A program made the position numbers and the translations under genes. Positions 7,522 through 37,124 of a DNA stretch of 37,124 nt are shown piece by piece; within the stretch, counting starts at the first letter, position 1, and every line of letters begins with the position of its first letter. The stretch is from Bacteroidales bacterium. Lineage in GTDB: Bacteria; Bacteroidota; Bacteroidia; Bacteroidales; UBA932. The notes under the pieces are model-generated. The model had not been told where the DNA came from and did not search any database. It saw only the letters and a program-made list of their open reading frames with translations. The stretch is taken from positions 1 to 37,124 of the forward strand of contig JAFQHE010000032.1 in NCBI GenBank assembly GCA_017398125.1, read 5' to 3'.

Positions 7522-7552
7522 TTTGCAAAGATAAAATAAATACCTATTTTTG
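7522..7552 (+). promoter_or_regulatory. cvpA promoter
   Basis: TTTG at 7522-7525, a 19-bp spacer and TATTTTTG at 7545-7552 match the Bacteroidetes consensus exactly. The cvpA ATG follows 24 bp later. The core shares the same bases as the ileS promoter on the other strand. Confidence 0.7.
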
Positions 7553-7575: not shown

Positions 7576-8070
7576 ATGGATTTGGGAATATTGGATTTCA
7601 TTATACTAATCATCATAATATCCAGCGCAATATATGGCGCATTCAAAGGATTCATTTCACAGCTTGCAACCATTGCTTCCCTGCTTTTGGGAGTATGGTG
7701 TGCATTCAAGTTTTCGGGTTATGCAGCGGCACAAATGAAGGAACTTTTTGAGATAGGCGAAACTGCCGTTTATATCGTCTCCTTCATTATCATCCTTGTA
7801 CTTGTCATAATTATCGGCAACCTTATCGGAAAAGCGGTGGAGAAGATAATCCATCTCTCACTATTAGGGTGGCTCAACAGGCTCCTTGGAGTTTTGTTCT
7901 CTGCAATGAAATGGGTAATTGTCATGAGTCTTGTGGCATATGTGCTCAATGTTATCAATGGTGCATGGCATATTATTCCCGACAAATTCTTTGCAGGCTC
8001 TCACCTTTACCCGCATTTGACAAATCTGTCACATAAAATTTTCCCATACCTTCAATCCATTGTCTCATAG
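7576..8070 (+). CDS. CvpA family inner-membrane protein
   Basis: A 164-residue integral membrane protein with about four hydrophobic segments (roughly residues 5-22, 28-47, 62-88 and 104-124) and the early 'YGAFKGFISQLATIASLLLG' stretch typical of the CvpA/colicin V production family. In E. coli CvpA is needed for colicin V production, but homologues are widespread and probably have a general envelope role. Its position just upstream of a peptide-export transporter is suggestive, but it has its own promoter and is divergent from ileS, so it may be an unrelated neighbour. It is the only candidate membrane protein near the peptide genes that could be considered for immunity, and nothing in its sequence specifically supports that. 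Confidence 0.85.
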   Translation: MDLGILDFIILIIIISSAIYGAFKGFISQLATIASLLLGVWCAFKFSGYAAAQMKELFEIGETAVYIVSFIIILVLVIIIGNLIGKAVEKIIHLSLLGWLNRLLGVLFSAMKWVIVMSLVAYVLNVINGAWHIIPDKFFAGSHLYPHLTNLSHKIFPYLQSIVS

Positions 8071-8197: not shown

Positions 8198-10348
8198 ATG
8201 TGGGACGGATTTACAAAACGGAAAATTTGCATCAGGCAGCACGACCTGTATGATTGCGGAGCTGCCTCCTTATGTTCAATAGCTGCCTGGCATGGACTTG
8301 TCATCCCCCTTTCAAGGGCAAGGAGCCTCTGTGGATGCTCCAGGGAGGGCACAACAATAAAAGGGATACTTGATGGTGCCAGAAGTCTTGGGCTCAACGG
8401 GAAAGCCCTGAAATCCCCACAAAAGGAGCTTGTCGGGATAATGAATATGGAGACTCCATATATAGCCCATATCAGAAATGAAGATGGCATGTTGCACTTT
8501 ATAGTGGTAACTGCTATCAGTTCAAGGAGTGTCCGGGTGATGGATCCTGCATTTGGAGAGCTTGCTTCATGGCCGGCAGAGAAGTTCCTTGAACGGTGGA
8601 GCGGATACATTATAACATTAGCACCAGGTCCGGACTTCAGGAAAGGAGAGTTCAAATTACCTTTGTGGCGGAAGCTTGTTGGAGTTGTTGCCCCATTCAA
8701 GTTCAAGTTCATCATTGCAATGGCCGCGGGCTTTGCAATGATTGGAGCCGGAGCTGCAAATTCCTTTATCCTCCAACACCTGATAGATGTAACCTTATTG
8801 TCGGGAAGCATGAGAGAGATGTGTACCATTTCCGCCATTGTTTTTATTCTGGCCATTGCAACAATGCTCCTTTACAGGAGAAAGAGTCTGCTGTTACTTG
8901 AAAGCGGGTTGGAGATTGACCATATACTGGCCAGCAGCTATATTAAAAAGCTTTTTTGCCTGCCTGCCAATTTGTACAACCAGTTTGCACCCGGAGATCT
9001 GAACTCCAGAATTGGGGATATTTATAAAACACGTCTGTTCATATCGGAGAGCCTGCTTGCTGTTCCAACATGCTGCGCAACCTTGCTTATAGTAGTTTTT
9101 CTGATGTTCTGGTCAAATTCCAGACTTGCAGTCCTTTCTTTTTCTTTCATTCCGCTTTACGCGGTTCTCTGTATAGTGTCGGTCCGCCTCAACAGGAGGC
9201 ATAACAGGGATCTGGCTCTTCTTGGCGCACAGTTCCAGAACAGCATGCTCTTCGGTATGGATAGTATTGTAACCGCCAAACATTTCGGCACTGAGCAGCA
9301 TGCAGCTATGAAAATTGAGGAAAGGTTTGAGGCTCTCCAAAAAGAGATGCTTGACGCAGGAAGGTGCATTACTGGAATCGAAACTGCAGGAAACGGACTC
9401 TATGGAGCCCTGATCTCTTCGACATTGGTCTTGGGCGGCTATATGGTTATTGGAGGAAGGGTTACAACAGGAGAGCTGGTATCATTTTACACATTATGCT
9501 CTCTTTTTGCCGCCCCGCTTGATACTCTTGTTGACCTGCACAACCACTATTCGCAAGCATGCATTTCTGCTGAAAGGCTCTTTGAGATTCTTGAACTGGA
9601 AGAAGAGTCCGATACTTGGTCAGAGGCCCCAGAGAGGGGAAAATGCAGTAATGAATTGTGCACACATGGGGAGCACAGCCGGAGAGAAATTTGTAAATAC
9701 ATCATTGATAATGATATTTCATTTGCAAATGTATCTTTTGGGTATCCGGGAAGAGAGAAGATAATCGACAATTTTTCAACATCATTTTCATCAGGCAGGA
9801 TAACTGCCTTATGCGGATCGAACGGAAGCGGCAAAAGCACATTGGGTGCGCTACTTATGAGGGATCTCCCTGCTTTGGAGGGAAAAATAGAGATTGGAGA
9901 GCGTGATATATCAACCATACCTCTTAATATTTGGCGAAGCCAGCTCTGCATTGTTCCTCAGAATATATTCATTTTCAATGATACACTATTGAACAACATA
10001 ACCTGTCTTAAGGAGGAGCCAGATATGGAAAGGGTTGTATCCGCTTGTGTTGATGCTGGACTTGCCTCCCTTATCGGGAGACTGCCGTCGGGAGTGCATA
10101 CCCATATAGGGAGTTGGAGAGGAATGTTGTCGGGAGGAGAGATAGAGAAGATTGGTATTGCCAGGGCTCTTTACAGAGATCCCCAGACCTACATTTTTGA
10201 CGAGGCCACTGCAAACATGGATGAGTTTTCGGAGAGGTCCATTGCCTGCTTGTTGGGACGGCTAAAGAGAGTGGGGAAAAGGGTTATTGTAATCACACAC
10301 AGCAGAGTGTTGAGAGGAGTTGCAGATGAGATTGTTGATTTGGGTTAA
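8198..10348 (+). CDS. Peptidase-containing ABC transporter (PCAT) with C39 protease domain
   Basis: This 716-residue protein combines three parts. Residues 1-135 are a C39 cysteine peptidase with Gln14 (oxyanion hole), Cys20 in DLYDCGAAS, His100 and Asp116, so the triad is intact. Residues about 150-450 form a six-helix ABC exporter membrane domain. Residues about 500-716 form the ATPase, with Walker A GSNGSGKST at 540-548, signature LSGGE at 644-648, Walker B IFDEAT with D668/E669, and a switch His701. Such transporters cut leader peptides after a Gly-Gly and export the mature peptide. Two GG-leader peptides follow directly downstream, and a TolC-type channel and adaptor come after them. I start at the ATG at 8198; an in-frame GTG at 8189 is possible. 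The 127 bp after cvpA contain no clear consensus promoter. Confidence 0.93.
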   Translation: MWDGFTKRKICIRQHDLYDCGAASLCSIAAWHGLVIPLSRARSLCGCSREGTTIKGILDGARSLGLNGKALKSPQKELVGIMNMETPYIAHIRNEDGMLHFIVVTAISSRSVRVMDPAFGELASWPAEKFLERWSGYIITLAPGPDFRKGEFKLPLWRKLVGVVAPFKFKFIIAMAAGFAMIGAGAANSFILQHLIDVTLLSGSMREMCTISAIVFILAIATMLLYRRKSLLLLESGLEIDHILASSYIKKLFCLPANLYNQFAPGDLNSRIGDIYKTRLFISESLLAVPTCCATLLIVVFLMFWSNSRLAVLSFSFIPLYAVLCIVSVRLNRRHNRDLALLGAQFQNSMLFGMDSIVTAKHFGTEQHAAMKIEERFEALQKEMLDAGRCITGIETAGNGLYGALISSTLVLGGYMVIGGRVTTGELVSFYTLCSLFAAPLDTLVDLHNHYSQACISAERLFEILELEEESDTWSEAPERGKCSNELCTHGEHSRREICKYIIDNDISFANVSFGYPGREKIIDNFSTSFSSGRITALCGSNGSGKSTLGALLMRDLPALEGKIEIGERDISTIPLNIWRSQLCIVPQNIFIFNDTLLNNITCLKEEPDMERVVSACVDAGLASLIGRLPSGVHTHIGSWRGMLSGGEIEKIGIARALYRDPQTYIFDEATANMDEFSERSIACLLGRLKRVGKRVIVITHSRVLRGVADEIVDLG

Positions 10349-10358
10349 TATGGTGGAA

Positions 10359-10381
10359 GCCTGCGCACCATTTCTGCAGGC
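10359..10381 (+). repeat. Small hairpin between transporter and first peptide gene
   Basis: GCCTGC (10359-10364) and GCAGGC (10376-10381) can pair across an 11-nt loop in the 51-bp gap after the PCAT stop. It could set relative expression of the peptides. The stem is short and the role is speculative. Confidence 0.35.
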
Positions 10382-10399
10382 ACTATTAAATATTTCAGT

Positions 10400-10588
10400 A
10401 TGGAAGAGAGCAGATTTTCGAGTTGCGGTCTTGTGGAAATTGATGGACTGGAGCTGCAGTTGAGGGGTGGAATGACCTGGAAAGAGCTGATGCAGTTGCT
10501 TGGGGTAGTAGAGAAGGTCCTCAAGTTTATTGGGGAGTATGAAGAGGAGTTGCGAAGAGGTTTTGAAAAAGGGTGGAGGATTTTATGA
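10400..10588 (+). CDS. Short peptide with possible double-glycine leader (candidate bacteriocin/signal subunit 1)
   Basis: A 62-residue open frame begins at an ATG 51 bp after the PCAT stop. Its N-terminal third ends in LELQLRGG at residues 17-24. This resembles a GG leader, with hydrophobic residues at -4, -6 and -8 before the cut, although it lacks the classical Ser-11/Glu-8 pattern. Cleavage would give a 38-residue product, MTWKELMQLLGVVEKVLKFI followed by a charged, Trp-containing C terminus. The product looks strongly amphipathic-helical and contains GFEKG, a GxxxG motif of the kind used for helix pairing in two-peptide bacteriocins. Its TGA overlaps the start of the next peptide gene within ATGATGA, so translation is probably coupled. 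I recognise no named family; the assignment rests on location, leader shape and coupling. Confidence 0.6.
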   Translation: MEESRFSSCGLVEIDGLELQLRGGMTWKELMQLLGVVEKVLKFIGEYEEELRRGFEKGWRIL

Positions 10589-10782
10589 TGAATGCATTGA
10601 TTGAGATTTCTGCAAACGAAAGTTCGCGTATCTTCGGAGGACGCAGCGAAGAGATTGCCAAAGTGGTGGAATTTGCAGCACAATGTATAGGTGCTTTGGC
10701 AAAAATTATCTATCTGACGGCAAAGCGTGGCCCAAGGGCAATAACCGAACAGATGGCATCGGGTTACTATCCGAAATTCTGA
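10585..10782 (+). CDS. Short peptide with canonical double-glycine leader (candidate bacteriocin/signal subunit 2)
   Basis: The frame starts at ATG 10585 or the adjacent ATG 10588, overlapping the stop of the previous peptide gene. The leader MNALIEISANESSRIFGG fits the GG-leader pattern: Ile at -4, Glu at -8, Ser at -11, Ile at -12 and Leu at -15 relative to the cut after Gly-Gly. The predicted mature peptide has 46 residues, beginning RSEEIAKVVEFAAQ. It carries a central hydrophobic stretch (about AAQCIGALAKIIYLTA) with one Cys and a basic, aromatic C-terminal tail ending GYYPKF. This is the expected substrate of the adjacent C39 transporter. It could be a class II bacteriocin/microcin-like peptide or a secreted signal. 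A single Cys means no internal disulfide. Confidence 0.7.
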   Translation: MMNALIEISANESSRIFGGRSEEIAKVVEFAAQCIGALAKIIYLTAKRGPRAITEQMASGYYPKF

Positions 10783-10785
10783 CGT

Positions 10786-10871
10786 ATAATGCGGTTGTCA
10801 TGGCTAATCATCAAACAAGAGTCGGTTCCCAAGTAATTTTTGATGGATTTGCAATTTGGCAACCGCATTAT
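10786..10871. repeat. 12-bp perfect inverted repeat flanking a 62-bp segment
   Basis: ATAATGCGGTTG (10786-10797) and CAACCGCATTAT (10860-10871) are perfect inverted copies; pairing extends three more positions inward with one wobble. The left arm begins just after the stop of peptide gene 2. The right arm lies inside the -33/-7 spacer of the promoter of the outer-membrane channel gene. It may be a small invertible segment, an operator pair, or an RNA stem. Confidence 0.75.
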
Positions 10872-10879
10872 TATCTTTG
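10848..10879 (+). promoter_or_regulatory. Promoter for the TolC-like gene, adaptor and tsaB
   Basis: TTTG (10848-10851), a 20-bp spacer and TATCTTTG (10872-10879) match the Bacteroidetes consensus. The ATG follows 36 bp downstream. The right arm of the inverted repeat occupies the end of the spacer, directly against the -7 element. Confidence 0.7.
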
Positions 10880-10914
10880 TGAAGTTATTGCAGCATTACA
10901 CTATCCAGGAGATT

Positions 10915-12234
10915 ATGAAAATAGTCAAACTACTGTTTACCACCCTATTGTCTGTTTTTTCATGCATTTATTCTTATGCCCAGCAGAGCTGGACTCTGGA
11001 AGAGTGCATAGATTATGCTCACAAAAACAATCTTCAGGTAAAACAGCAGGAGGTATCTGTCAGGCAGGCTGAGAATAGTGTAAAACAGTCAAAACTTGAT
11101 TTCATTCCCACCTTCAATGCATCATTAGGGTATAATCTGAACTGGGGAAAATCGGTCAATATCAATGACCTTGAAATTACCAACCAGCTTACACAAAGTG
11201 CTACGGCCAATTTTGGGGCATCAACCCCAATACTTGAGGGATTTGCCAAACACAACACTTTGAAGAGCAACCGCACACAACTGCAAATCAGCCAGCAGGA
11301 GGTAGAACGGCTCAAAAATGAAATCACCATCTCAATAACCCAGGCATATCTTCAGCTTCTTCTCTCCATTGAAATAGAAAAGAGCGCCAGAGAGAGTTTC
11401 AACAGTGTGGCCCGACAGGTTGAGAGAACCGCACTGCTGGTAGAGGCCGGAAGCCAGCCATATAGTGCCCTGCTTGATATTGAAGCCCAACTCTCAACAG
11501 AGAGGGTACAACTGGTTGCTGCAGGCAATGATATTAAAAGCAACCGCCTGACATTGCTCCAATTGATGGATATACAGGATGATTCCAATTTCACAATTGC
11601 AGTTCCGGAGATTGATGACACCCTTGGCGTCTTCATAAAAGAGAGTATAAATTCAATATACAACAGTGCCACAACTCTCCCTCAGATAAGGACAGCTGAA
11701 CTGCAATTGAGCAAGAGCAGATATGATTACAAAATACAGAAAGGCTATCTCTTTCCGAGTATCTCTTTCAATGCCGGTTATGGTACATATTTCAGCGACA
11801 GCCAACACTCCCGTTTTTTTGACCAGTTCAACGAGAACAGGAATCCGTCGATGGGATTTTCGCTCAGTATACCAATCTTTAACGGCTGGCGAAGAAGTGC
11901 TGCAGTACGGAATGCCGGACTGAATGTAGAGAGTGCCCGGATTGAACTCAAAAGAAGGCACCATACACTTTATAAGGAGATTCAGATGGCAGCCAATAAT
12001 GCCGAAAATTCGTATGAAAAATATAAGGCGGCCCTCCATAATATGAAGGCAAGTGAGGAGTCATTTGAGTATGTAAGGAACAAATTCAATGCCGGCACCC
12101 TTAATGGTACCGACTATATAGTGGCCAAGAGCAACCTGTTCAAGGCCCAATCTGAATTTTACCAGACAAAATTCCAATATATTTTCCAACTGAAAATTCT
12201 GGATTTCTACAAGGGCACACCAATAAAACTATAA
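10915..12234 (+). CDS. TolC-family outer-membrane channel protein
   Basis: A 439-residue protein with a signal peptide (MKIVKLLFTTLLSVFSCIYS, cut near SYAQ). Two internally related halves rich in long coiled-coil helices follow, for example WTLEECIDYAHKNNLQVKQQ at the N terminus, a phrase typical of the outer-membrane efflux protein family, and FNAGTLNGTDYIVAKSNLFK near the end. TolC-like trimers span the outer membrane and periplasm and let substrates leave the cell in one step. It is followed after 4 bp by the adaptor gene. The ATG at 10915 is preferred over a longer frame from 10840 because it begins a proper signal peptide and lies just downstream of a consensus promoter. Confidence 0.92.
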   Translation: MKIVKLLFTTLLSVFSCIYSYAQQSWTLEECIDYAHKNNLQVKQQEVSVRQAENSVKQSKLDFIPTFNASLGYNLNWGKSVNINDLEITNQLTQSATANFGASTPILEGFAKHNTLKSNRTQLQISQQEVERLKNEITISITQAYLQLLLSIEIEKSARESFNSVARQVERTALLVEAGSQPYSALLDIEAQLSTERVQLVAAGNDIKSNRLTLLQLMDIQDDSNFTIAVPEIDDTLGVFIKESINSIYNSATTLPQIRTAELQLSKSRYDYKIQKGYLFPSISFNAGYGTYFSDSQHSRFFDQFNENRNPSMGFSLSIPIFNGWRRSAAVRNAGLNVESARIELKRRHHTLYKEIQMAANNAENSYEKYKAALHNMKASEESFEYVRNKFNAGTLNGTDYIVAKSNLFKAQSEFYQTKFQYIFQLKILDFYKGTPIKL

Positions 12235-12238
12235 CGGC

Positions 12239-13468
12239 ATGAGCGGGAACAGAAAAAGAAGCAAATACATACTATTTGGAAGTTTGGCAATTATAGCCAC
12301 TCTCATATTCATTGGGATAAACAAGGAGGAACCGGGAATTGATGTAACTGTGGAATATCCCAAACGCACTACAATCACTGAAGCCATTCCCGCCAATGGA
12401 AAGATCCAGCCGGTCACTGAGGTAAAGATCAGCCCCGACGTATCAGGAGAGATTGTTGAGCTCCATATCAACGAGGGGAGCAATGTAAACAAAGGAGATC
12501 TGCTCATAAAGATAAAGCAGGATGTCTATATTTCTGCCGTAGACAGGGCAGAAGCTTCTCTGAACTCAATCAAGGCACAATACCTCCAGCAGAAGGCCCA
12601 GCTTGTACAGATGGAGCAATCTCACAAAAGAAACACCCTGCTACACTCACAAAAGGCAATTTCACAGGCAGAGTATGAGACCTCCCAGGCACAATATGAG
12701 GTGGCAGTGGAACAGCTGAATGCTGCCAAATATAATGTAAAGAGTGCCCAGGCCGCTTTGGAGGAGGCAAAAGAGAACCTTAGAAAGACAACGATATATG
12801 CGCCCATGACAGGTATAGTCTCAATGCTTGCCGTTGAAAAGGGTGAGAGGGTTGTAGGAACAAGCCAGATGGCCGGCACAGAGATGCTACGCATTGCAAA
12901 CCTCAATGAGATGGAGGTACTTGTGGATGTCAATGAAAATGATATTATCAGATTGAGTCTGCAGGACACTGCATACATTGAGGTAGATGCCTATCCCAAC
13001 AGAAAATTCAAAGGTATAGTAACACAAATAGCAAATTCAGCCAAGAATACAGCCTCATCCCTTTCTGACCAGGTGACCAATTTTGAGGTCAAGGTAAGCA
13101 TACTTCCTGACTCATATACCGATCTGCAGGGGCAGAATTCCATTCCATTCCGTCCGGGCATGAGCGCATCTGTATCTATCCTTACCCAAATAAGCGAGAA
13201 TGCACTCACTGTACCTTTGCAGGCCATTACCACAAGAGAAGGGCTTCTTGATACAATTCCCGACAATGGAATCTGTGAACAGGTATTCATATATGACAGA
13301 ACCACATCACAAGTAAAAGTGACAAGAGTAAAAAGCGGCATACAGGATATGCAGCTTATTGAGATAACTGATGGCCTGACCGACAGTGTCGAGATTGTAA
13401 CAGGCCCGTACAATGCAATAAGCCGGACCCTGAAGAACGGCTCCAAAGTTAAAGTAAAGGAGAAATAG
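12239..13468 (+). CDS. Periplasmic adaptor (membrane fusion) protein, MacA/HlyD-like
   Basis: The 409-residue protein has one N-terminal membrane anchor (residues about 10-26) followed by a barrel-sandwich/lipoyl half (GKIQPVTEVKISPDVSGEIV), a long helical hairpin (about residues 100-185), the second lipoyl half (APMTGIVSMLAVEKGERVVG) and beta-barrel and membrane-proximal domains. Such adaptors join an inner-membrane pump to a TolC-type channel. No MacB-type ABC protein or RND pump lies nearby, so the upstream C39 transporter is the closest possible partner; the domain style is more MacA-like than the HlyD type usually paired with C39 exporters. It sits 4 bp after the channel gene and 1 bp before tsaB. 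Confidence 0.92.
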   Translation: MSGNRKRSKYILFGSLAIIATLIFIGINKEEPGIDVTVEYPKRTTITEAIPANGKIQPVTEVKISPDVSGEIVELHINEGSNVNKGDLLIKIKQDVYISAVDRAEASLNSIKAQYLQQKAQLVQMEQSHKRNTLLHSQKAISQAEYETSQAQYEVAVEQLNAAKYNVKSAQAALEEAKENLRKTTIYAPMTGIVSMLAVEKGERVVGTSQMAGTEMLRIANLNEMEVLVDVNENDIIRLSLQDTAYIEVDAYPNRKFKGIVTQIANSAKNTASSLSDQVTNFEVKVSILPDSYTDLQGQNSIPFRPGMSASVSILTQISENALTVPLQAITTREGLLDTIPDNGICEQVFIYDRTTSQVKVTRVKSGIQDMQLIEITDGLTDSVEIVTGPYNAISRTLKNGSKVKVKEK

Positions 13469-30737: not shown

Positions 30738-31205
30738 TCAGAATAGCCGTTTTACCTTTCCAGCTGCAATCATACCCCATCTTAAAATGCGCCATACCAG
30801 CAGTTCCACACTATAGATGGCACTCTTTGGTGCTTTAGCCTTTGCTGTACCGTTATTGCATCTGTATATCTCAGCAACCCTGCCAACCACATCTGATGGC
30901 AGGCAATCTTCTCCTCTTCCAAAAACATTGTCACCTCTCAACACTATACGGCCTGTTGGTTTGTCAAAAGATGTTACCCTATGTAGCACATGCATTCCCT
31001 TATATCTGAAGAGCAATATATCACCTTTGACTATGCTCTGCGGATTGCATGGCTCAAGCTTCACCTCATCCTTGCCGTTACGCAAAAGGGGCATCATGGA
31101 AAAGCCGTTGACAGTAAAACGTACGCTCCGTCCTGATGCAATCTCCTCTTCAACCCACGCAAAAAATATATTGTTGGGAACAACCCTCTTTGATGTGCTC
31201 TCCAT
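30738..31205 (-). CDS. S26-type signal peptidase-like serine protease (Ser/His form)
   Basis: The 155-residue protein has NGFSMMPLL (catalytic Ser36), a KGDILLFR strand, VLHRV with His75 where bacterial signal peptidase I has its Lys base, and the GDN motif at 91-93. The Ser/His pair is the pattern of the ER/archaeal/SipW branch. There is no N-terminal membrane segment; instead the C terminus (about 130-155) is an amphipathic or membrane-associated helix. It is the last gene of the PqqD-NTase-ABC-HprK-S26 operon, 8 bp after the kinase-like gene, so it probably trims a substrate of that pathway rather than general secreted proteins. It could also be classed as S24/S26 LexA-like, but there is no DNA-binding domain. 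Confidence 0.8.
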   Translation of the reverse strand: MESTSKRVVPNNIFFAWVEEEIASGRSVRFTVNGFSMMPLLRNGKDEVKLEPCNPQSIVKGDILLFRYKGMHVLHRVTSFDKPTGRIVLRGDNVFGRGEDCLPSDVVGRVAEIYRCNNGTAKAKAPKSAIYSVELLVWRILRWGMIAAGKVKRLF

Positions 31206-31213
31206 AACTTACA

Positions 31214-32101
31214 TTACCTCCCGAAAATCGTTTCACAAGAGAGTTGCGCAGCAGCATAATCAGGCAGACATCCCATTCTGTATACCGGCACAGACTCAAG
31301 AAGTTTTCCTATGGTTGAACTTATACCGTCATACAACAATGCATCATAAGCAAAATCAGGAGGAGATGACGGATGCACCGCGCCATACGCATGGAGCAGC
31401 GGCAATCTTTCAATTCTGTTGAATGGAGCCTGATATAACCTGACAATGGCTGCCAATGGATACCTCTCCTGCTTGTAGCAAGGGGTCTTGCCACTCCACG
31501 GCGATCCGTAGACATATACACTACCATCTTCGATCCTCAATATAGGACTGTCATCGTTCAAGAGTGTTGCTCCAGGTATTGATTCACGCCACATACGCGT
31601 ATGCGTACTTTTACCTGTTCCGCTCTCGCCAAGGAATAGTACCGCCATGCCATCATATACAATACAGCTGCTATGTATTGCTATTGCATTGCTTCCCGAC
31701 AGCATTACACCAAATCCTATCCACAAGGCAAACCTCAACATCTGCGGCATAAGTGAACCGCAGACCACAGCCCTGCCCTCATCGCAGCTGACCTGCATAA
31801 ACAGTTCATTTCCATTCTCATGCCTCATTTTCTGAAAATAGCGGCCGGTTTCATCTGTAGAGTAGAATTCACTTACAACACCATCATTCTCAGAAGAATA
31901 AAGCAATTTACCTGTGATTCCTCCAAAATCCTTGCCACCATAAGAAAAAGTTATCAAAGCCGCCTCTTCCAGCTCCGATCTCTCTTCAAAAACGGCGAAA
32001 CTTCCAAGCCCTGCCAGGCCATTTACAAGATCATCACCCTGAACATCAACAATGTATCCGCCTATACGAAATCTCTTTGACTCCATTGAATCCACAAACA
32101 T
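31214..32101 (-). CDS. HPr-kinase/PEPCK-like P-loop ATPase
   Basis: About 295 residues. The C-terminal half has the HprK fold signatures: a Walker A loop GESGTGKS, a preceding HSSCIVYDGMAVLFLGES strand pair, the acidic motif LLNDDSPIL about 20 residues later, and GSPWSGKTP. The N-terminal half has no clear family. Relatives of this kind phosphorylate the C-terminal Ser of some lasso-peptide precursors and occur as HprK-related proteins beside PqqD-like proteins; no HPr or PTS gene is near. Numbered from the GTG at 32113, which overlaps the ABC stop, Walker A is at 162-169; I give the first ATG at 32101 as the start, but the GTG is possible. Substrate unknown. Confidence 0.8.
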   Translation of the reverse strand: MFVDSMESKRFRIGGYIVDVQGDDLVNGLAGLGSFAVFEERSELEEAALITFSYGGKDFGGITGKLLYSSENDGVVSEFYSTDETGRYFQKMRHENGNELFMQVSCDEGRAVVCGSLMPQMLRFALWIGFGVMLSGSNAIAIHSSCIVYDGMAVLFLGESGTGKSTHTRMWRESIPGATLLNDDSPILRIEDGSVYVYGSPWSGKTPCYKQERYPLAAIVRLYQAPFNRIERLPLLHAYGAVHPSSPPDFAYDALLYDGISSTIGKLLESVPVYRMGCLPDYAAAQLSCETIFGR

Positions 32102-32109
32102 ATCTATTA

Positions 32110-33774
32110 TCACTCAATTTCCACAACTCTGTCACAGAACTTAAGGGAGCTCTCCCTATGCGCTATGGACAATATCGTCAAATCTCCACAACTCTTCCTC
32201 AACTGCAACAGCATATTATTTATCTCCAGCTCAGTACCATTATCAAGAGCAGATGTTGCCTCATCAAGAAGCAGCACATTCACTCTCCTGTAAATGGCAC
32301 GTGCAATTCCTATTCTCTGTCTCTGCCCTCCCGACAATCTCTTGCCCTCCTCGCTCATATTTGTATCAATTCCGTCGGGCAAGCTCTCCACCCACTCCCT
32401 GAGGCAGACTTTGTCGAGCACCTCTTCAATCCTCTTCCGGTCAATCTCAGTCTCACCCAGCGCAATGTTTTCCGCCAACGTGCCATAAAATATGAATACA
32501 TCCTGGGATACATACCCGACCTGACTCAACCACTTCTGGCGGTTGCCCTCATGCAACGGTATGCCATCTATCCTTACCTCTCCACTCTGGGGTGAAATGA
32601 AGCCCAACAGAAGATTGAACAGGGTTGTCTTGCCTACTCCACTGTACCCCTTGAAACCGACAAACTCGCCACTGTTCACGGTGCAGTTGAAATCATTGAA
32701 GAGAGGATCTCCGTCGGGAAAAGAGTAGTAGATTGATGCAAACTCTATCTTGTCTGAGAATGGCCGTTCGAATGATTTGTCTGGTTCTTCAGCTATAGAA
32801 GCCGGATTATTGGCAGAGCTATTCTCTCCATTTTTATCGTAATTCAGGGCAGTCTCTATAATATCGAGGCAATAAGAGGCATTCTCAAGCTGGGCATAAC
32901 CGGTCATTATACTGCGTATTGCCGGCAAAAGCCTGAACGAAGCCACTGCAAAAAGGCCTACCAGCAACGACACATCGCCGCTGCGTGTCACAACCAGCAG
33001 CACCAGACCAATCACTATGGCCAACTCTCCCAAAAAGAGCGGAATCCGCATCAGTGTATCCATCTGCAGCCTGTTGGTTGCTATTTTGTCAAGACCTGTC
33101 TTGAACATCTCTTGTGCATACGGAAATGCTCCGCTCACCTGCAGGTCGGCATACCCCTTGAACGTATCCATTACAACCCGGCTCTGGTCACGCTTTGCCT
33201 TGACATCCTCTTTTCCTATTGCCTTGACCCTCTTTCTTACTCCAAGGACATATATGAGCAGAAAGGGCGTAAAACTGCAGAGAAGTATTAAAGATGTCTT
33301 AAAATCATAAATGGCAAGAGCTGTAGCCACCAATATCAACAGCATTGAATCACTCGCCATCTTCAAAAGCGAAGGCAACACATTCTGGCTGAATATGAAT
33401 GATATATAGTTGGTATCGTGGGAAAGTCTGTTGGAACCCTCACCCTTAATGAAAAGCAAGCCCCGTCTGAAATAGCTGGTGTAAAGGGCCAGGCTCAACC
33501 TCTTGTAGATTGAGAGCATATATCTGTTCTGGAATCTTGAAAAGAGTATGCCCACTGTGCTTTTGAGTATTATCAATGCCACAGCCAATAGTGAAAAGAG
33601 GAGTGCTGCCCTGCTGTTTTCTCCCCCCTTAAGGAGCCAATAGAGGACCGGAAGCAAGGATGCCAGACTTACAAAATCCAGCAAGGTCGTAAAAAAGAGA
33701 GCAGCAGCGACACGTACTCCACCTTTACGTTCCCTTTTGTCAAGCAATTTGTATATTCTTCCGAAGAGCTGCAT
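32110..33774 (-). CDS. ABC exporter (fused membrane and ATPase domains), no peptidase domain
   Basis: The 554-residue protein has a six-helix exporter domain (about 20-300), a Ser/Asn-rich linker (about 312-335) and an ATPase with Walker A GYSGVGKT at 376-383, signature LSGGQ at 480-484 and Walker B LLLDEATS with D504/E505. Unlike the transporter at 8198 it lacks the C39 protease domain, so any leader removal would need the separate S26-type enzyme. Size and layout resemble PglK/lasso-peptide D-type exporters. Its stop overlaps the kinase-like frame and it lies 43 bp after the nucleotidyltransferase gene. Confidence 0.92.
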   Translation of the reverse strand: MQLFGRIYKLLDKRERKGGVRVAAALFFTTLLDFVSLASLLPVLYWLLKGGENSRAALLFSLLAVALIILKSTVGILFSRFQNRYMLSIYKRLSLALYTSYFRRGLLFIKGEGSNRLSHDTNYISFIFSQNVLPSLLKMASDSMLLILVATALAIYDFKTSLILLCSFTPFLLIYVLGVRKRVKAIGKEDVKAKRDQSRVVMDTFKGYADLQVSGAFPYAQEMFKTGLDKIATNRLQMDTLMRIPLFLGELAIVIGLVLLVVTRSGDVSLLVGLFAVASFRLLPAIRSIMTGYAQLENASYCLDIIETALNYDKNGENSSANNPASIAEEPDKSFERPFSDKIEFASIYYSFPDGDPLFNDFNCTVNSGEFVGFKGYSGVGKTTLFNLLLGFISPQSGEVRIDGIPLHEGNRQKWLSQVGYVSQDVFIFYGTLAENIALGETEIDRKRIEEVLDKVCLREWVESLPDGIDTNMSEEGKRLSGGQRQRIGIARAIYRRVNVLLLDEATSALDNGTELEINNMLLQLRKSCGDLTILSIAHRESSLKFCDRVVEIE

Positions 33775-33817
33775 TGTTTATAGCTATTATTTTTTGGTAA
33801 TTACACCATTTTTGAGG

Positions 33818-35056
33818 TCATTTTGTTTTGAAGATAAGCATAGGTTCCTTTACATGGGCTACTACAGATTTCCATATTCCCGACAGCAGAGAGGTTCTTA
33901 TTACCTCATTGACCAATCTGTATCTGTGAATAAGTCTGCGTGTCTTGTATATCAATATCCTGAACCTGCCTTTAAACGGAATTTCATTCTCATACTCCGG
34001 ACAGATCATCTCTTTCAACATCTTTCTGGCAAGAGCTTTTGCACTCTCAATATCAACTGCACCGTTTGCAAAGCAGCCGCCATTTACACCGGAATCAGTA
34101 CCCAACAAAGTATCACTAAGTACCGACAAAGCAGCAATTCCTTTAAGGAAATACTTGTCATCTATCTCACCCGGCCACTCTTTCAAGGCCCCGGCCTGCA
34201 ACAGCACTGCCCAGTCGCACAAATGGTGCAATGTAAGCCCGCAGCCATAATGCTGGAATGCATGGAAAGGAACAAAGATCGAATTGAATGCCAATGACGG
34301 AACAAGTATACTCCGGCTGCACCCTTGCAACACCACCTCTTTTGGATTGATGTTCCGTCTCAAAAATAGATCAAGCACCTCTCCATACTTGTAGTGCTGC
34401 ACGTTAAGGAAAAATTTATGGTTCTCAATGGGAATATGTCTGTAATTGAAGTTGCTGTGCTTGTATGAGTGCATCTGAACCTCTATTCCCTCTTTGCGCA
34501 TAAGTTCATCAGCCAGTTCATTGGCCCTGCGGTCTCTCTTTCTGGCAACCGATTCGCAATCTCCACTCTCCTTTGAACAAGAGGCCTCTTTGGATGACAG
34601 TTCGGAAGTTCCGGCTGCGCGCTCCAGATTTTCAAGGGCAAATGTGTATATGTCAATATCACCGCCCTCACGATGCTGTGGCTTAGGATAATATGATGAC
34701 AACCCTACACCCTTCAGCTGTACAGTTGCTATGCCGTTGCTTCTGTAGAATGAACTGAGCTCTTCTATCACGCTACAATACAAAGCATAACGCTTTTCAT
34801 ACCTCTCAACAGCCATTGCCCAAGGGATCTTGACGCTCAATGGAGGCTGCTGCTCTTTAGGCAACTTCATAACGCCATCCCAGGCCAATGCCATAACACC
34901 CTGCTTGCAGGCCAAACCATAACAGAGGCTCCACTCCTTTGCAGAGACTCCGTCAAACCGGCCTTCGGCAAGACCGCTCACCTCTCCATACCCGAATCCG
35001 AGCCTGAGCAGTGCAAAAAGCAACTTTTCACTTCTATTCAAATTGAAACCGTCCAT
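33818..35056 (-). CDS. Nucleotidyltransferase family protein (NTP_transf_5-like)
   Basis: The 412-residue protein has the nucleotidyltransferase-fold signature LKGVGLSSYYP at 114-124 followed by GGDIDIY at 131-137, where the two Asp should bind metal. Helical flanking regions and HAFQHYGCGLTLHHLCDWAVLL fit the family often found beside PqqD-like and HprK-like genes. Residues about 146-178 are a Ser/Lys/Glu-rich insertion right after the catalytic motif, unusual for the family. The start is taken as ATG 35054-35056 (MDGFNLNRSEKLL). It may attach a nucleotide to a peptide, protein or sugar; the substrate is unknown. Confidence 0.8.
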   Translation of the reverse strand: MDGFNLNRSEKLLFALLRLGFGYGEVSGLAEGRFDGVSAKEWSLCYGLACKQGVMALAWDGVMKLPKEQQPPLSVKIPWAMAVERYEKRYALYCSVIEELSSFYRSNGIATVQLKGVGLSSYYPKPQHREGGDIDIYTFALENLERAAGTSELSSKEASCSKESGDCESVARKRDRRANELADELMRKEGIEVQMHSYKHSNFNYRHIPIENHKFFLNVQHYKYGEVLDLFLRRNINPKEVVLQGCSRSILVPSLAFNSIFVPFHAFQHYGCGLTLHHLCDWAVLLQAGALKEWPGEIDDKYFLKGIAALSVLSDTLLGTDSGVNGGCFANGAVDIESAKALARKMLKEMICPEYENEIPFKGRFRILIYKTRRLIHRYRLVNEVIRTSLLSGIWKSVVAHVKEPMLIFKTK

Positions 35057-35089
35057 AAAGCAATCAGAGACCAACCTGCCATTTGCCTG

Positions 35090-35356
35090 CTACGAGATTA
35101 CACCGCAATTTTTCAGAGATTCCACCCACTTGCCGGCATCCTTCATGGCAAGATCATTGTCAATTCCATACTCATCAACAAGAGCCTGTGCAGCATCCTC
35201 CACCTCAAACTCCCTTGCCTCCATAGCTTTGTAAAGATACTTGGCTGTTGAATTCAATGAAATTATACGTGTCAGGTCTGTACCCACCTTACCCTGGTTA
35301 ACAATAATGCACTCACCTGCCACCTCTCTCAATTTATATTCTGGATCTATTTTCAT
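35090..35356 (-). CDS. PqqD-like peptide-binding protein (RiPP recognition element type)
   Basis: An 88-residue protein with the PqqD-fold pattern: a short strand LREVAGECIIVNQGK, the LNSTAKYLYKAM helix and a C-terminal winged helix-turn-helix (DLAMKDAGKWVESLKNCGVI). PqqD-like domains bind leader peptides of ribosomally made, modified peptides and present them to tailoring enzymes. It is the first gene of a five-gene operon with nucleotidyltransferase, ABC, kinase-like and S26 genes. I start at the ATG at 35354-35356; a GTG two codons earlier is possible. No radical-SAM partner is present, unlike pyrroloquinoline quinone loci. Confidence 0.85.
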   Translation of the reverse strand: MKIDPEYKLREVAGECIIVNQGKVGTDLTRIISLNSTAKYLYKAMEAREFEVEDAAQALVDEYGIDNDLAMKDAGKWVESLKNCGVIS

Positions 35357-35376
35357 AAGCACTTAAATTACACCCC

Positions 35377-35465: not shown

Positions 35466-37124
35466 TTACTCCGTAGGATAAGAGTAAACAGCATAATCTT
35501 CATCTATGCCTGTGCTCTTTGTGCTTAAAATATCGTATGCAGCCTTGGTTACCTTAACTGAAATTGGTTTTGAAGAGGCTTTACTGCCTAAATGATAGAA
35601 CATAAAGCCAAAATCAGTTACCTTGCTTACGTTAAAGGATGTCAAATCAAGAGAGGTAAGGCTACTGCAATGATAGAACATCCAGCTCATATCTGCAACC
35701 TTCTCTGTATTGAAATTACTTAAATCAAGAGAAGTAAGGCTACTGCAAAAACCGAACATACTTTTCATATTTGTAACATTTGCTGTATTGATATTACTCA
35801 AATCAAGGGTTTGAAGTTTCTCACACTCATTGAACATACTATGCATATCTGTAACATTCTCAGTATTGAAATTGCTCAAATCAAGCGAAGTAAGGCTGCT
35901 GCAACCACGGAACATATAGCTCATGTTAGTCACATTCTCTGTATTAAACTTGCTCAAATCAAGCGAAGTAAGGCTACTGCAACCATCGAACATATAGCTC
36001 ATGTTAGTCACATTCTCTGTATTAAACTTGCTCAAATCAAGCGAAGTAAGGCTGCTGCAACCACGGAACATATAGCTCATGTTAGTCACATTCTCTGTAT
36101 TAAACTTGCTCACATCAAGAGAAGTAAGACTGCTACATTCATCGAACATCCATGTCATATTTGTTACATTTGCTGTATTGAAATTGCTCAAATCAAGAGA
36201 GGTAAGTCTACTGCAATTATAGAACATCCAGCTCATATCTGTAACCTTCTCAGTATTGAAATTGCTAAGATCAAGAGAAGTAAGACTGCTGCATTCACTG
36301 AACATCCAGCACATACGTGTTACATTAGATGTATTTATACAGTCATTAAAATCAATTGCTGTAATGCGTGCCAAAGCATCTGCAGTTGCCTCCTCTAATG
36401 AGCTTGCTCCAAACATGTACGAGCAATTTGCATTGAACACAAACTCTTTGGCAGCTGTGTGAATTTCAATTACACTGCCATTTACTTTGATATAGGCTCC
36501 GGTGCCGGTTCCTATTTCTGTGGCTCCGGAAAGGTTTTCTCTGCTGTTTGCAATGAATTTGACCTGAACACTCTCTAATGTGCCAATGGCTGCCACAACT
36601 GCATCTCTGAATGTTTTTCCATTTGGCAGATAACAGGCGGCAGGTATCTCTTCAAAGTTGCTGCTGCTTTTGGCAATATTGTAGAGGTTGCCTGAGGTGA
36701 TTGTGTTGTTGCCAAGTATGGTCTTGTAGGTGGTCTCTCCGGCAGTGGCATAGATGGCACAGTTCTTTACCTCTTTGCCTGTTGCAGGTACTGCAAAGTA
36801 TGCAGTTGCCTGGCCGTCGGCATCAGCTGTAATGCCTTCTGTTGAGATTATGTTTGAACCTGAAAGCAGACCTTCGGCATAGAGCTCCACATTCACACTC
36901 TTGCTCTTGAATGCCTCGTTTGTGAGGGACATTTTGATTATGGCCGAGTTGTGGTTGAATTTGAGGTTCAATCCAGTGGTTGACTGGTTGGCAGTCACAT
37001 CTATTGAGGCTTCAAGGGTAAGAAACTCTTCAACATCGGCCAATGTTCCGCCCTGAGAGCTGTAGTCTGCCGGTGTTGTGGCAGGGTAAGATGCCTTTAC
37101 AGAGCCGGCAGAGGCAAATGTTGA
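35466..37124 (-). CDS. Surface protein with fimbrillin-like N-terminal region and BspA-type repeats (5' end outside window)
   Basis: The frame is open from the window edge to its TAA, giving 552 visible residues; the true start and any signal peptide lie to the right. The first 160 or so residues (FNHNSAIIKMSLTN, then TSGNLYNIAKSS) resemble the Mfa/FimA-like fimbrillin family. They are followed by nine consecutive 26-residue repeats with consensus MSWMFxxCSSLTSLDLSxFN-TENVTN, the DUF285/BspA-like leucine-rich type found in host-binding surface proteins. A short C-terminal region follows. The protein is probably exported and attached to the cell surface or a fimbria. An internal TTG at 37041 is not a believable start because the upstream frame stays open and in style. 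Confidence 0.85.
   Translation of the reverse strand, partial: STFASAGSVKASYPATTPADYSSQGGTLADVEEFLTLEASIDVTANQSTTGLNLKFNHNSAIIKMSLTNEAFKSKSVNVELYAEGLLSGSNIISTEGITADADGQATAYFAVPATGKEVKNCAIYATAGETTYKTILGNNTITSGNLYNIAKSSSNFEEIPAACYLPNGKTFRDAVVAAIGTLESVQVKFIANSRENLSGATEIGTGTGAYIKVNGSVIEIHTAAKEFVFNANCSYMFGASSLEEATADALARITAIDFNDCINTSNVTRMCWMFSECSSLTSLDLSNFNTEKVTDMSWMFYNCSRLTSLDLSNFNTANVTNMTWMFDECSSLTSLDVSKFNTENVTNMSYMFRGCSSLTSLDLSKFNTENVTNMSYMFDGCSSLTSLDLSKFNTENVTNMSYMFRGCSSLTSLDLSNFNTENVTDMHSMFNECEKLQTLDLSNINTANVTNMKSMFGFCSSLTSLDLSNFNTEKVADMSWMFYHCSSLTSLDLTSFNVSKVTDFGFMFYHLGSKASSKPISVKVTKAAYDILSTKSTGIDEDYAVYSYPTE
35613..36314 (-). repeat. Nine tandem 78-bp repeats in the BspA-like gene
   Basis: Nine units of 78 bp each encode 26 residues beginning M-x-x-MF. 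The three central units (start points of the shared block at 35913, 35991 and 36069) are almost identical at the DNA level, whereas the outer units have diverged. This suggests recent duplication or gene conversion in the centre. Confidence 0.9.

Follow-up and report, generated by a model that had tools for sequence, protein, structure and literature searches.

This study concerns a 37,124-nt stretch of DNA (contig JAFQHE010000032.1 of GenBank assembly GCA_017398125.1, positions 1 to 37,124; the window) from a genome (G000) of Candidatus Egerieousia, a genus (g1 in our numbering) placed within Bacteroidales, GTDB family UBA932 (PMC8035907), and in particular a locus for a peptide exporter and two small peptides. 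On the forward strand, a peptidase-containing ATP-binding cassette (ABC) transporter (PCAT; positions 8198 to 10348) is followed by two short overlapping genes, pep1 (10400 to 10588) and pep2 (10585 or 10588 to 10782), and then by genes for a TolC-type outer-membrane channel (OEP) and a periplasmic adaptor (membrane fusion protein, MFP). An original prediction, made from the letters of the window, had read these genes as a complete dedicated export route for two double-glycine peptides acting as bacteriocins or signals. Our results support the view that pep1 and pep2 are genuine and conserved partners of the exporter, and raise the possibility that they work as a membrane-active pair in the manner of the class IIb two-peptide bacteriocins.

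The intact C39-ABC exporter of that prediction was confirmed. The protein unites in one chain a C39 peptidase domain with its Cys-His-Asp residues (Peptidase_C39, E = 8.5e-25), an ABC membrane domain (ABC_membrane), and an ATPase domain (ABC_tran), the architecture of a PCAT. Gln14, Cys20, His100, and Asp116 are unvarying in the 21 genus loci aligned, out of 35. Among solved structures, PCAT1 (4ry2, an "ABC-type bacteriocin transporter") is nearest, with a match over residues 5 to 701 of the query (E = 6.5e-93), and HlyB comes behind it (E = 3.2e-41). Scores lie under the curated cut-offs of TIGR01193 (289.8 versus 523.85 bits) and TIGR03796 (314.4 versus 853.3 bits), and the protein is therefore a divergent PCAT. 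From its domains it is expected to remove double-glycine leaders and to export peptides.

Both small genes lie where they had been predicted and overlap at ATGATGA. The pep1 precursor (62 aa) consists of a 24-aa leader ending in LRGG and a 38-aa mature part, and the pep2 precursor (64 aa counted from the ATG at 10588, the second of a tandem pair) consists of an 18-aa leader ending in IFGG and a 46-aa mature part. No Pfam or NCBIfam model matches either window peptide at an E value of 1 or better. We read the locus in 35 g1 genomes (34 plus the window, with peptide frames hand-picked from the list of open reading frames), in 20 genomes of other genera picked by a pep2-profile match, in two more (G071 and G080) fetched because the profile missed them, and in 20 further genomes sampled as PCAT positive and pep2-profile negative. 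Searching named contigs with the C39 alignment returned further records of such loci, and many of their titles point to the rumen, a gut section, or the faeces of yak, water buffalo, goat, cattle, deer, or horse. Assessable loci number 70, across 12 genera, every one with CvpA upstream or TolC downstream; L213, whose contig ends 595 nt past PCAT, and the named contig L090, which also carries the pep1-pep2 pair, stand outside this count.

Both peptide frames, in order and with the cleavage motif, follow PCAT in 70 of 70 assessable loci, each of which thus has two different adjacent precursors with a double-glycine-type leader, as class IIb systems do. Both frames start with ATG and keep an unvarying Gly-Gly in 35/35 g1 loci, and both are present in all 20 profile-picked loci of other genera and, all the same, beside PCAT in G071 and G080. 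Among the 20 profile-negative genomes, PCAT stands at the locus in 14, and 13 of these 14 have both frames, L213 ending too early; around the remaining six PCATs, the available sequence holds none of the conserved neighbors and, within its reach, no peptide pair; for L214 it extends only about 360 nt downstream. The pep2 leader ends in Ala-Gly instead of Gly-Gly in four loci of genus g45. At L217 (genus g41), pep1 begins 483 to 495 nt past the PCAT match, further than elsewhere.

The linkage holds across the family. Among 299 family genomes (the PCAT and pep2 draws share handles and size and were taken as one set; thresholds, 1e-60 for PCAT and E = 0.01 for the pep2 profile), 185 have a PCAT match, including PCATs at other chromosomal places, and 130 match the pep2 profile; all 130 have a PCAT match, and none of the 114 genomes without a PCAT match is pep2 positive. 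Within g1, PCAT and pep2 were matched in 37 of 39 genomes by the family search, and an orthologous PCAT was found in 34 of 36 other genomes by the relatives search, those without it being G001 and G010. These two genomes (L182 and L181) have neither PCAT nor pep2 matches. Profile matches outside the family look like chance: pep2 matched four genomes in the order search (393 genomes, of which 6 are listed family members; E = 0.005 to 0.009), all within frames of 355 to 722 aa, and pep1 matched 1 of 294 genomes in the class search besides the window's own (E = 0.0038).

Over seven independent close pairs of loci, pN/pS was 0.196 for pep1 and 0.206 for pep2 (binomial, 4e-29 and 9e-33). Over all 17 pairs it was 0.16 and 0.17 in the mature parts and 0.35 and 0.29 in the leaders, with the split at fixed positions 24 and 18, which is slightly off where leaders are short, in a few cases. 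Saturated synonymous change left two pair-and-gene combinations with no dN/dS ratio. That the window peptides lack a database match would fit small frames that are chance or non-coding, a reading that is virtually impossible given their conservation in 70/70 loci and a pN/pS of about 0.2. The same figures bear on the two outcomes that the original prediction had named as fatal to it, and neither was borne out: the frames are conserved under purifying selection, and the locus PCAT is not found with a different substrate, since the pair follows it in every assessable locus. Gene distances were compared over 60 of the 68 loci used for motif counts (all seven genes required). PCAT distances correlate with those of CvpA (r = 0.83), TsaB (0.78), pep1 (0.86), and pep2 (0.81); given the agreement with CvpA and TsaB, a horizontally acquired island was set aside. 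A viral home was likewise dismissed, with no relative in viral_contigs.

The mature peptides share a motif. Among 68 loci (L223 and L229 were left out as near copies of L218), strict GxxxG occurs in 64 mature pep1 sequences (300 shuffles: mean 19.3, maximum 30) and in 52 mature pep2 sequences (mean 15.5, maximum 25). The other four pep1 have GxxxA and [GA]xxxG is present in 68/68 pep2, so that GxxxG or its Gly-to-Ala variant, the motif expected of class IIb, is found in all 68 of each peptide. The window itself has GFEKG near the C terminus of pep1 and AQCIG, an AxxxG form, in pep2, where most relatives have GxxxG. At 33 loci of other genera, the invariant or nearly invariant columns besides the initial Met are, in both peptides, the leader Gly-Gly and the GxxxG glycines (G54/G58 in pep1 and G30/G34 in pep2, L219 numbering). 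Across the 35 genus loci, Tyr47 and Gly54 of pep1 and Gly35 of pep2 are the corresponding invariant residues beyond the leader, and the other motif position varies, mostly between Gly and Ala. The helical moment exceeds that of shuffled sequences in 68/68 pep1 and 67/68 pep2. AlphaFold, applied to single chains, models mature pep1 as helices 27 to 46 and 48 to 61 (mean predicted local distance difference test score [pLDDT] 75.6; predicted template modeling score [pTM] 0.36) and mature pep2 as one helix, 21 to 57 (71.1 and 0.38), with a pLDDT of 92 in the block 31 to 40 around the pep2 motif. PDB searches gave nothing useful, with the peptide profiles (best match, a designed coiled coil, E = 0.0037) or with single peptides. 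PHROGs gave isolated weak matches with genus pep2, and Pfam gave weak unrelated matches with the 33 other-genus peptides of each kind.

Plantaricin J and K (PlnJ and PlnK) are described as amphiphilic helices that interact via GxxxG (PMC4985602). We scored PDB-confirmed sequences of these two peptides and of lactococcin G-alpha and -beta (LcnG-alpha and LcnG-beta), comparators picked after a resemblance had been noticed, against profiles of mature pep1 and pep2. The backgrounds were 2,000 shuffles and 1,097 natural GxxxG windows, the latter drawn from these very loci, which are related, so that the windows are not independent. PlnJ scored 8.4 bits with pep1 (2 and 0 of 2,000 shuffles and 0 of 1,097 natural windows as high), and PlnK scored 7.1 bits with pep2 (1 and 2 shuffles, 0 natural windows). 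LcnG-beta reached 4.8 bits with pep1 (32 and 45 shuffles, 4 natural windows), and LcnG-alpha reached 4.6 bits with pep2 (2 and 6 shuffles, 7 natural windows). All four alignments span the GxxxG motif, and scores with the wrong partner were ordinary with one exception, LcnG-alpha against pep1. NC8-beta scored faintly with pep1 (44/2,000 shuffles). Among NCBIfam models, lactococcin G-beta was weakly matched by 5 of the 33 pep1 from other genera (best, 0.0044) and lactococcin G-alpha, again weakly, by a single one of their 33 pep2 (0.082); the matches of the relatives' peptides to NF038034 and NF038035 are weak and lie below the cut-off where one is shown.

The UBA932 system thus resembles plantaricin JK and lactococcin G: two precursor genes lie side by side, both mature peptides are short and carry the GxxxG motif or its variant, amphipathic helices are predicted, and there is a pairwise likeness around GxxxG of PlnJ and LcnG-beta to pep1 and of PlnK and LcnG-alpha to pep2. 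It differs from them in having a Gram-negative host and vertical inheritance, in having TolC and MFP beside the exporter, in the absence of an immunity gene in the window genus, and in an activity that is predicted. The alternatives left by the original prediction, bacteriocins or signals, can therefore be narrowed to a class IIb-like pair on account of the GxxxG motifs and the partner-specific similarity to PlnJK and LcnG.

Several observations weigh against this assignment. The bit scores (4.6 to 8.4) are low and the comparators were chosen post hoc; LcnG-alpha gives a weak score with pep1 as well (85 and 83/2,000 shuffles), and PlnE, PlnF, and NC8-alpha do not match the pep1 and pep2 profiles. 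The window peptides match no class IIb model. Pep1 of L217, from the same locus in g41, does pass the TIGR03949 class IIb model (25.1 bits versus a cut-off of 21.5), which speaks for the assignment, but this model is short (45 positions) and the match may partly come from the leader. The AlphaFold pTM values are low, the window pep1 has a net charge of 0 and is not cationic, and only 17/68 pep2 and 2/68 pep1 sequences reach the hydrophobicity of a simple transmembrane helix. The mature peptides are more constrained than the leaders over the 17 pairs, the sign of an arms race being absent; the pair L054/L059, one of the 17, has a pep1 dN/dS of 0.76. Vertical inheritance at a housekeeping locus, with presence in 37/39 genus genomes, also sets the system apart from most bacteriocins. 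A rumen metagenome-assembled contig labelled Firmicutes (RUG832; L128, 10158 to 10453) carries a distant PCAT (22%) and then two double-glycine peptides, the first with weak matches to models for lactococcin G-beta (2.4e-4) and for class IIb (TIGR03949, 0.0016); its second peptide has a slight pep2 score (54/2,000) and its first has none with pep1 (543/2,000).

The question of immunity also counts against a class IIb assignment in the window genus. In the window and in its genus, the interval from PCAT to TolC holds no gene beyond the two peptide genes, and therefore no immunity gene is present there, where a class IIb operon should hold one. An obvious immunity gene is likewise missing from the bacteroidetocins as described (PMC6671954). 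In genus g45, a CAAX/Abi-type gene (PF02517, 2.4e-15) lies directly 3' of pep2 in 8/8 loci (L145, L148, L150, L197, L218, L223, L225, and L229). In the two proteins examined, its product is 239 to 240 aa long and has all of the EELLFR, FSLCH, and H motifs; tblastn with two g45 queries found a relative in 0 of 101 other sequences. Proteins of the CAAX/Abi type are reported to serve as immunity proteins of two-peptide bacteriocins (PMC6957408), and the g45 protein is a candidate immunity protein that counts in favor of a class IIb-like pair.

The predicted channel and adaptor are indeed encoded downstream on the same strand. The OEP gene (10915 to 12234) matches PF02321 (E = 6.2e-56) and lies below the cut-off of TIGR01844, and the MFP gene (12239 to 13468) encodes an adaptor of the resistance-nodulation-division (RND)/MacA type (TIGR01730 RND_mfp, 160.7 bits versus a cut-off of 94.9). 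The usual upstream neighbor is cvpA (7576 to 8070, forward strand), for a CvpA family membrane protein (PF02674, E = 2.2e-30). Across the 70 loci, CvpA is found upstream in 63, contig ends explaining two of its seven misses, and TolC, MFP, and TsaB are found downstream in 68, 66, and 66, contig ends explaining two misses each for MFP and TsaB. The adjoining cvpA was dropped as a colicin V clue because CvpA adjoins TolC or TsaB without PCAT in several genomes.

We take TAnnTTTG to be the Bacteroidota -7 element and TTTG-N19-TAnnTTTG to be the promoter consensus. The strict two-element form has three matches in the window on both strands, among them one upstream of cvpA (7522 to 7552, forward), a candidate promoter for cvpA-PCAT-pep1-pep2, and one with a 20-nt spacer (TTTG-N20-TATCTTTG; 10848 to 10879, forward), 35 nt ahead of the start codon of TolC, from which TolC-MFP-TsaB is probably transcribed separately. 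In 54/68 loci (32/34 in the genus and 22/34 outside), TAnnTTTG lies in the 170 nt that precede TolC, against 7% of random 170-nt windows; it occurs upstream of PCAT in 8/68, near background, and the first 90 nt beyond PCAT contain it in 1/68. The strict form upstream of TolC is found in the window only (1/68). Because of the promoter elements before TolC and cvpA, the genes probably form two cooperating transcription units, cvpA-PCAT-pep1-pep2 and TolC-MFP-TsaB.

How far the channel and adaptor belong to the peptides was judged from gene content and distances. Over the 60 loci, OEP and MFP distances correlate at r = 0.93 and either correlates with the rest at 0.60 to 0.69. With TsaB and CvpA removed, the PCAT-OEP partial r is 0.83 in 30 genus loci (0/300 permutations) and 0.21 in 30 loci of other genera (reached by 14/300 permutations), and in the genus PCAT, OEP, MFP, and the peptides co-vary beyond the flanking genes (partial r of 0.55 to 0.84, 0/300 permutations). 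Because this co-variation within the genus exceeds that of the neighbors, TolC-MFP is probably the outlet for the peptides. The same figures favor the claim that the genes from PCAT to MFP form one tripartite exporter dedicated solely to the peptides, which we nonetheless consider doubtful: TolC-MFP-TsaB occurs without an adjoining PCAT in genomes of three other families (G042, G043, and G059) and of UBA932 (G010, G066, and G082), L036 (G019) and L142 (G073) have PCAT and both peptides with no TolC-MFP within about 7.8 kb downstream, TolC-MFP has its own promoter element, and the other-genus PCAT-OEP correlation is weak. The complete dedicated export route originally proposed is only partly supported; TolC-MFP is a separable module, probably with its own promoter. 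In G010 and G066, CvpA lies upstream of TolC-MFP-TsaB with a gap of 189 and 159 nt and no peptide frame, and in several family genomes CvpA adjoins TsaB with neither PCAT nor TolC-MFP between. In G001 (L182), TsaB stands beside CvpA with no TolC-MFP on that contig.

Read together, these genes suggest a mechanism in which PCAT would cut pep1 and pep2 after Gly-Gly and export products of 38 and 46 residues, most likely via the neighboring MFP and TolC. Both products would be amphipathic helices acting as a pair, and a GxxxG face on each helix would allow them to dock into a two-helix membrane unit, as described for class IIb peptides such as plantaricin JK. Their most likely role would be membrane damage to close relatives that share the niche but have a different pair or receptor, or none. 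We infer the steps of cleavage, TolC/MFP use, pairing, membrane insertion, and killing from sequence, and we lean modestly toward exported, paired, helical, membrane-active peptides with class IIb-like action on close relatives.

This reading has to be set against other uses of the same peptides. The pair may act on the producer's own population, in autolysis or envelope remodelling, rather than on competitors; the absence of an immunity gene in the window genus, the vertical inheritance, and the strong purifying selection would suit such a role, and the gonococcal Nap peptides, which have features of class II microcins and a C39 peptidase, are reported to mediate autolysis (PMC11798529). The Abi/CAAX gene at the immunity position in g45 and the partner-specific similarity to killing pairs speak against it, and we hold it to be unlikely. 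It is rather unlikely, too, that a system of the LcnG/PlnJK type has become a core, vertically inherited family module in Gram-negative Bacteroidota, no longer a weapon but now with a role at the cell's own envelope or in telling kin from non-kin, with immunity kept or regained only in some genera. Pheromones also leave cells via C39 exporters, and there are isolated weak matches to models for BlpC (4.4e-4), VP1 (0.011), and ComC (0.039). A signaling role is very unlikely given that the cassette in the genus has no sensor or regulator, since no further gene lies between PCAT and TolC, that two different peptides always occur as a pair, and that a conserved GxxxG would be unexpected for pheromones. 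Our best reading is thus of a system that would be class IIb-like in its working, yet is inherited like a core gene. We do not file it as a class IIb bacteriocin, because the window has no immunity gene, its peptides have no curated match, and killing is deduced from sequence.

Other known systems share parts of this arrangement. The bacteroidetocins of Bacteroidales, which are class IIa-like, have a double-glycine leader, a C39-type transporter, and a mature peptide of 42 aa (PMC6671954); they are single peptides with four cysteines and genes for a thiol oxidoreductase and a transmembrane protein, whereas the UBA932 cassette has two mostly cysteine-free peptides and neither of these genes. 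Cysteine is absent from mature pep1 in 56/68 loci and from mature pep2 in 47/68, with a maximum of two, and membership was rejected for lack of a four-cysteine mature peptide. Caulobacter Cdz consists of two small glycine-zipper proteins with GxxxG, CdzC and CdzD, secreted by a type I system, and was compared with class IIb by its own authors (PMC5380434). In contrast to pep1 and pep2, CdzC and CdzD are longer (86 and 84 aa), with extended hydrophobic zippers and an immunity gene, cdzI, and Cdz-like systems are described as often acquired horizontally (PMC5380434). Membership was rejected here also, the extended GxxxGxxxG zipper occurring in 1/68 mature pep1 and 1/68 mature pep2.

Class II microcin export, as for colicin V (CvaB, CvaA, and TolC), likewise joins a C39 exporter, an adaptor, and TolC for a double-glycine peptide (PMC10352776), whereas in UBA932 the adaptor is of the RND/MacA type, TolC is adjoining, there are two peptides, and the cvpA beside the cassette occurs without PCAT too. 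Gonococcal Nap combines several bacteriocin-like double-glycine peptides with a C39 peptidase and differs in lying on a horizontally acquired island with a FapF-type channel; its peptides are reported to cause autolysis and no killing of other species (PMC11798529). Class IIb-labelled peptides and an ABC transporter are described from another Bacteroidales genome, Bacteroides dorei RX2020, as BAGEL 4/antiSMASH labels only, with no conserved two-gene pair in that description (PMC11944543); the class IIb label has therefore been used in this order before.

Two-peptide GxxxG bacteriocins are described from Gram-positives (PMC6957408), and the Caulobacter Cdz proteins are an atypical Gram-negative case (PMC5380434). 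A survey of ribosomally synthesized and post-translationally modified peptides in Bacteroidales gives a general association of PCATs with double-glycine peptides (PMC10352776), and a review covers bacteroidetocins and a two-component Gram-negative bacteriocin (PMC7616364). A camel rumen study that includes UBA932 genomes detected bacteriocin clusters in no phyla but Firmicutes, Spirochaetota, and Actinobacteriota (PMC9177762), and a rumen culture survey has lanthipeptide core peptides in Cryptobacteroides, the terms "two-peptide" and "class IIb" not occurring (PMC13289728). In the titles and abstract openings searched, a coverage without bioRxiv preprints and most subscription papers, no two-peptide system is reported in UBA932.

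Elsewhere in the window, the reverse strand at 30738 to 35362 holds a PqqD-like frame (35090 to 35362, by eye), an NTP_transf_5 protein (PF14907, 1.4e-33), an ABC transporter, and HPr-kinase-like and S24/S26-like frames (by eye, no Pfam match). This cluster looks like a separate peptide-natural-product type without C39. A protein encoded at 35466 to 37043 on the same strand has many near-identical SSLTSLDLSNFNTENVTNMSYMF-type repeats, which presumably resemble BspA-type surface repeats.

The constant order of PCAT, pep1, and pep2 provides dozens of natural variants, and one genus provides a candidate immunity protein. If the class IIb-like reading is true, a pair that is fixed in synteny across the family would make the class IIb mechanism a core trait in another phylum, and the purpose of a conserved, immunity-poor bacteriocin would become a testable question.

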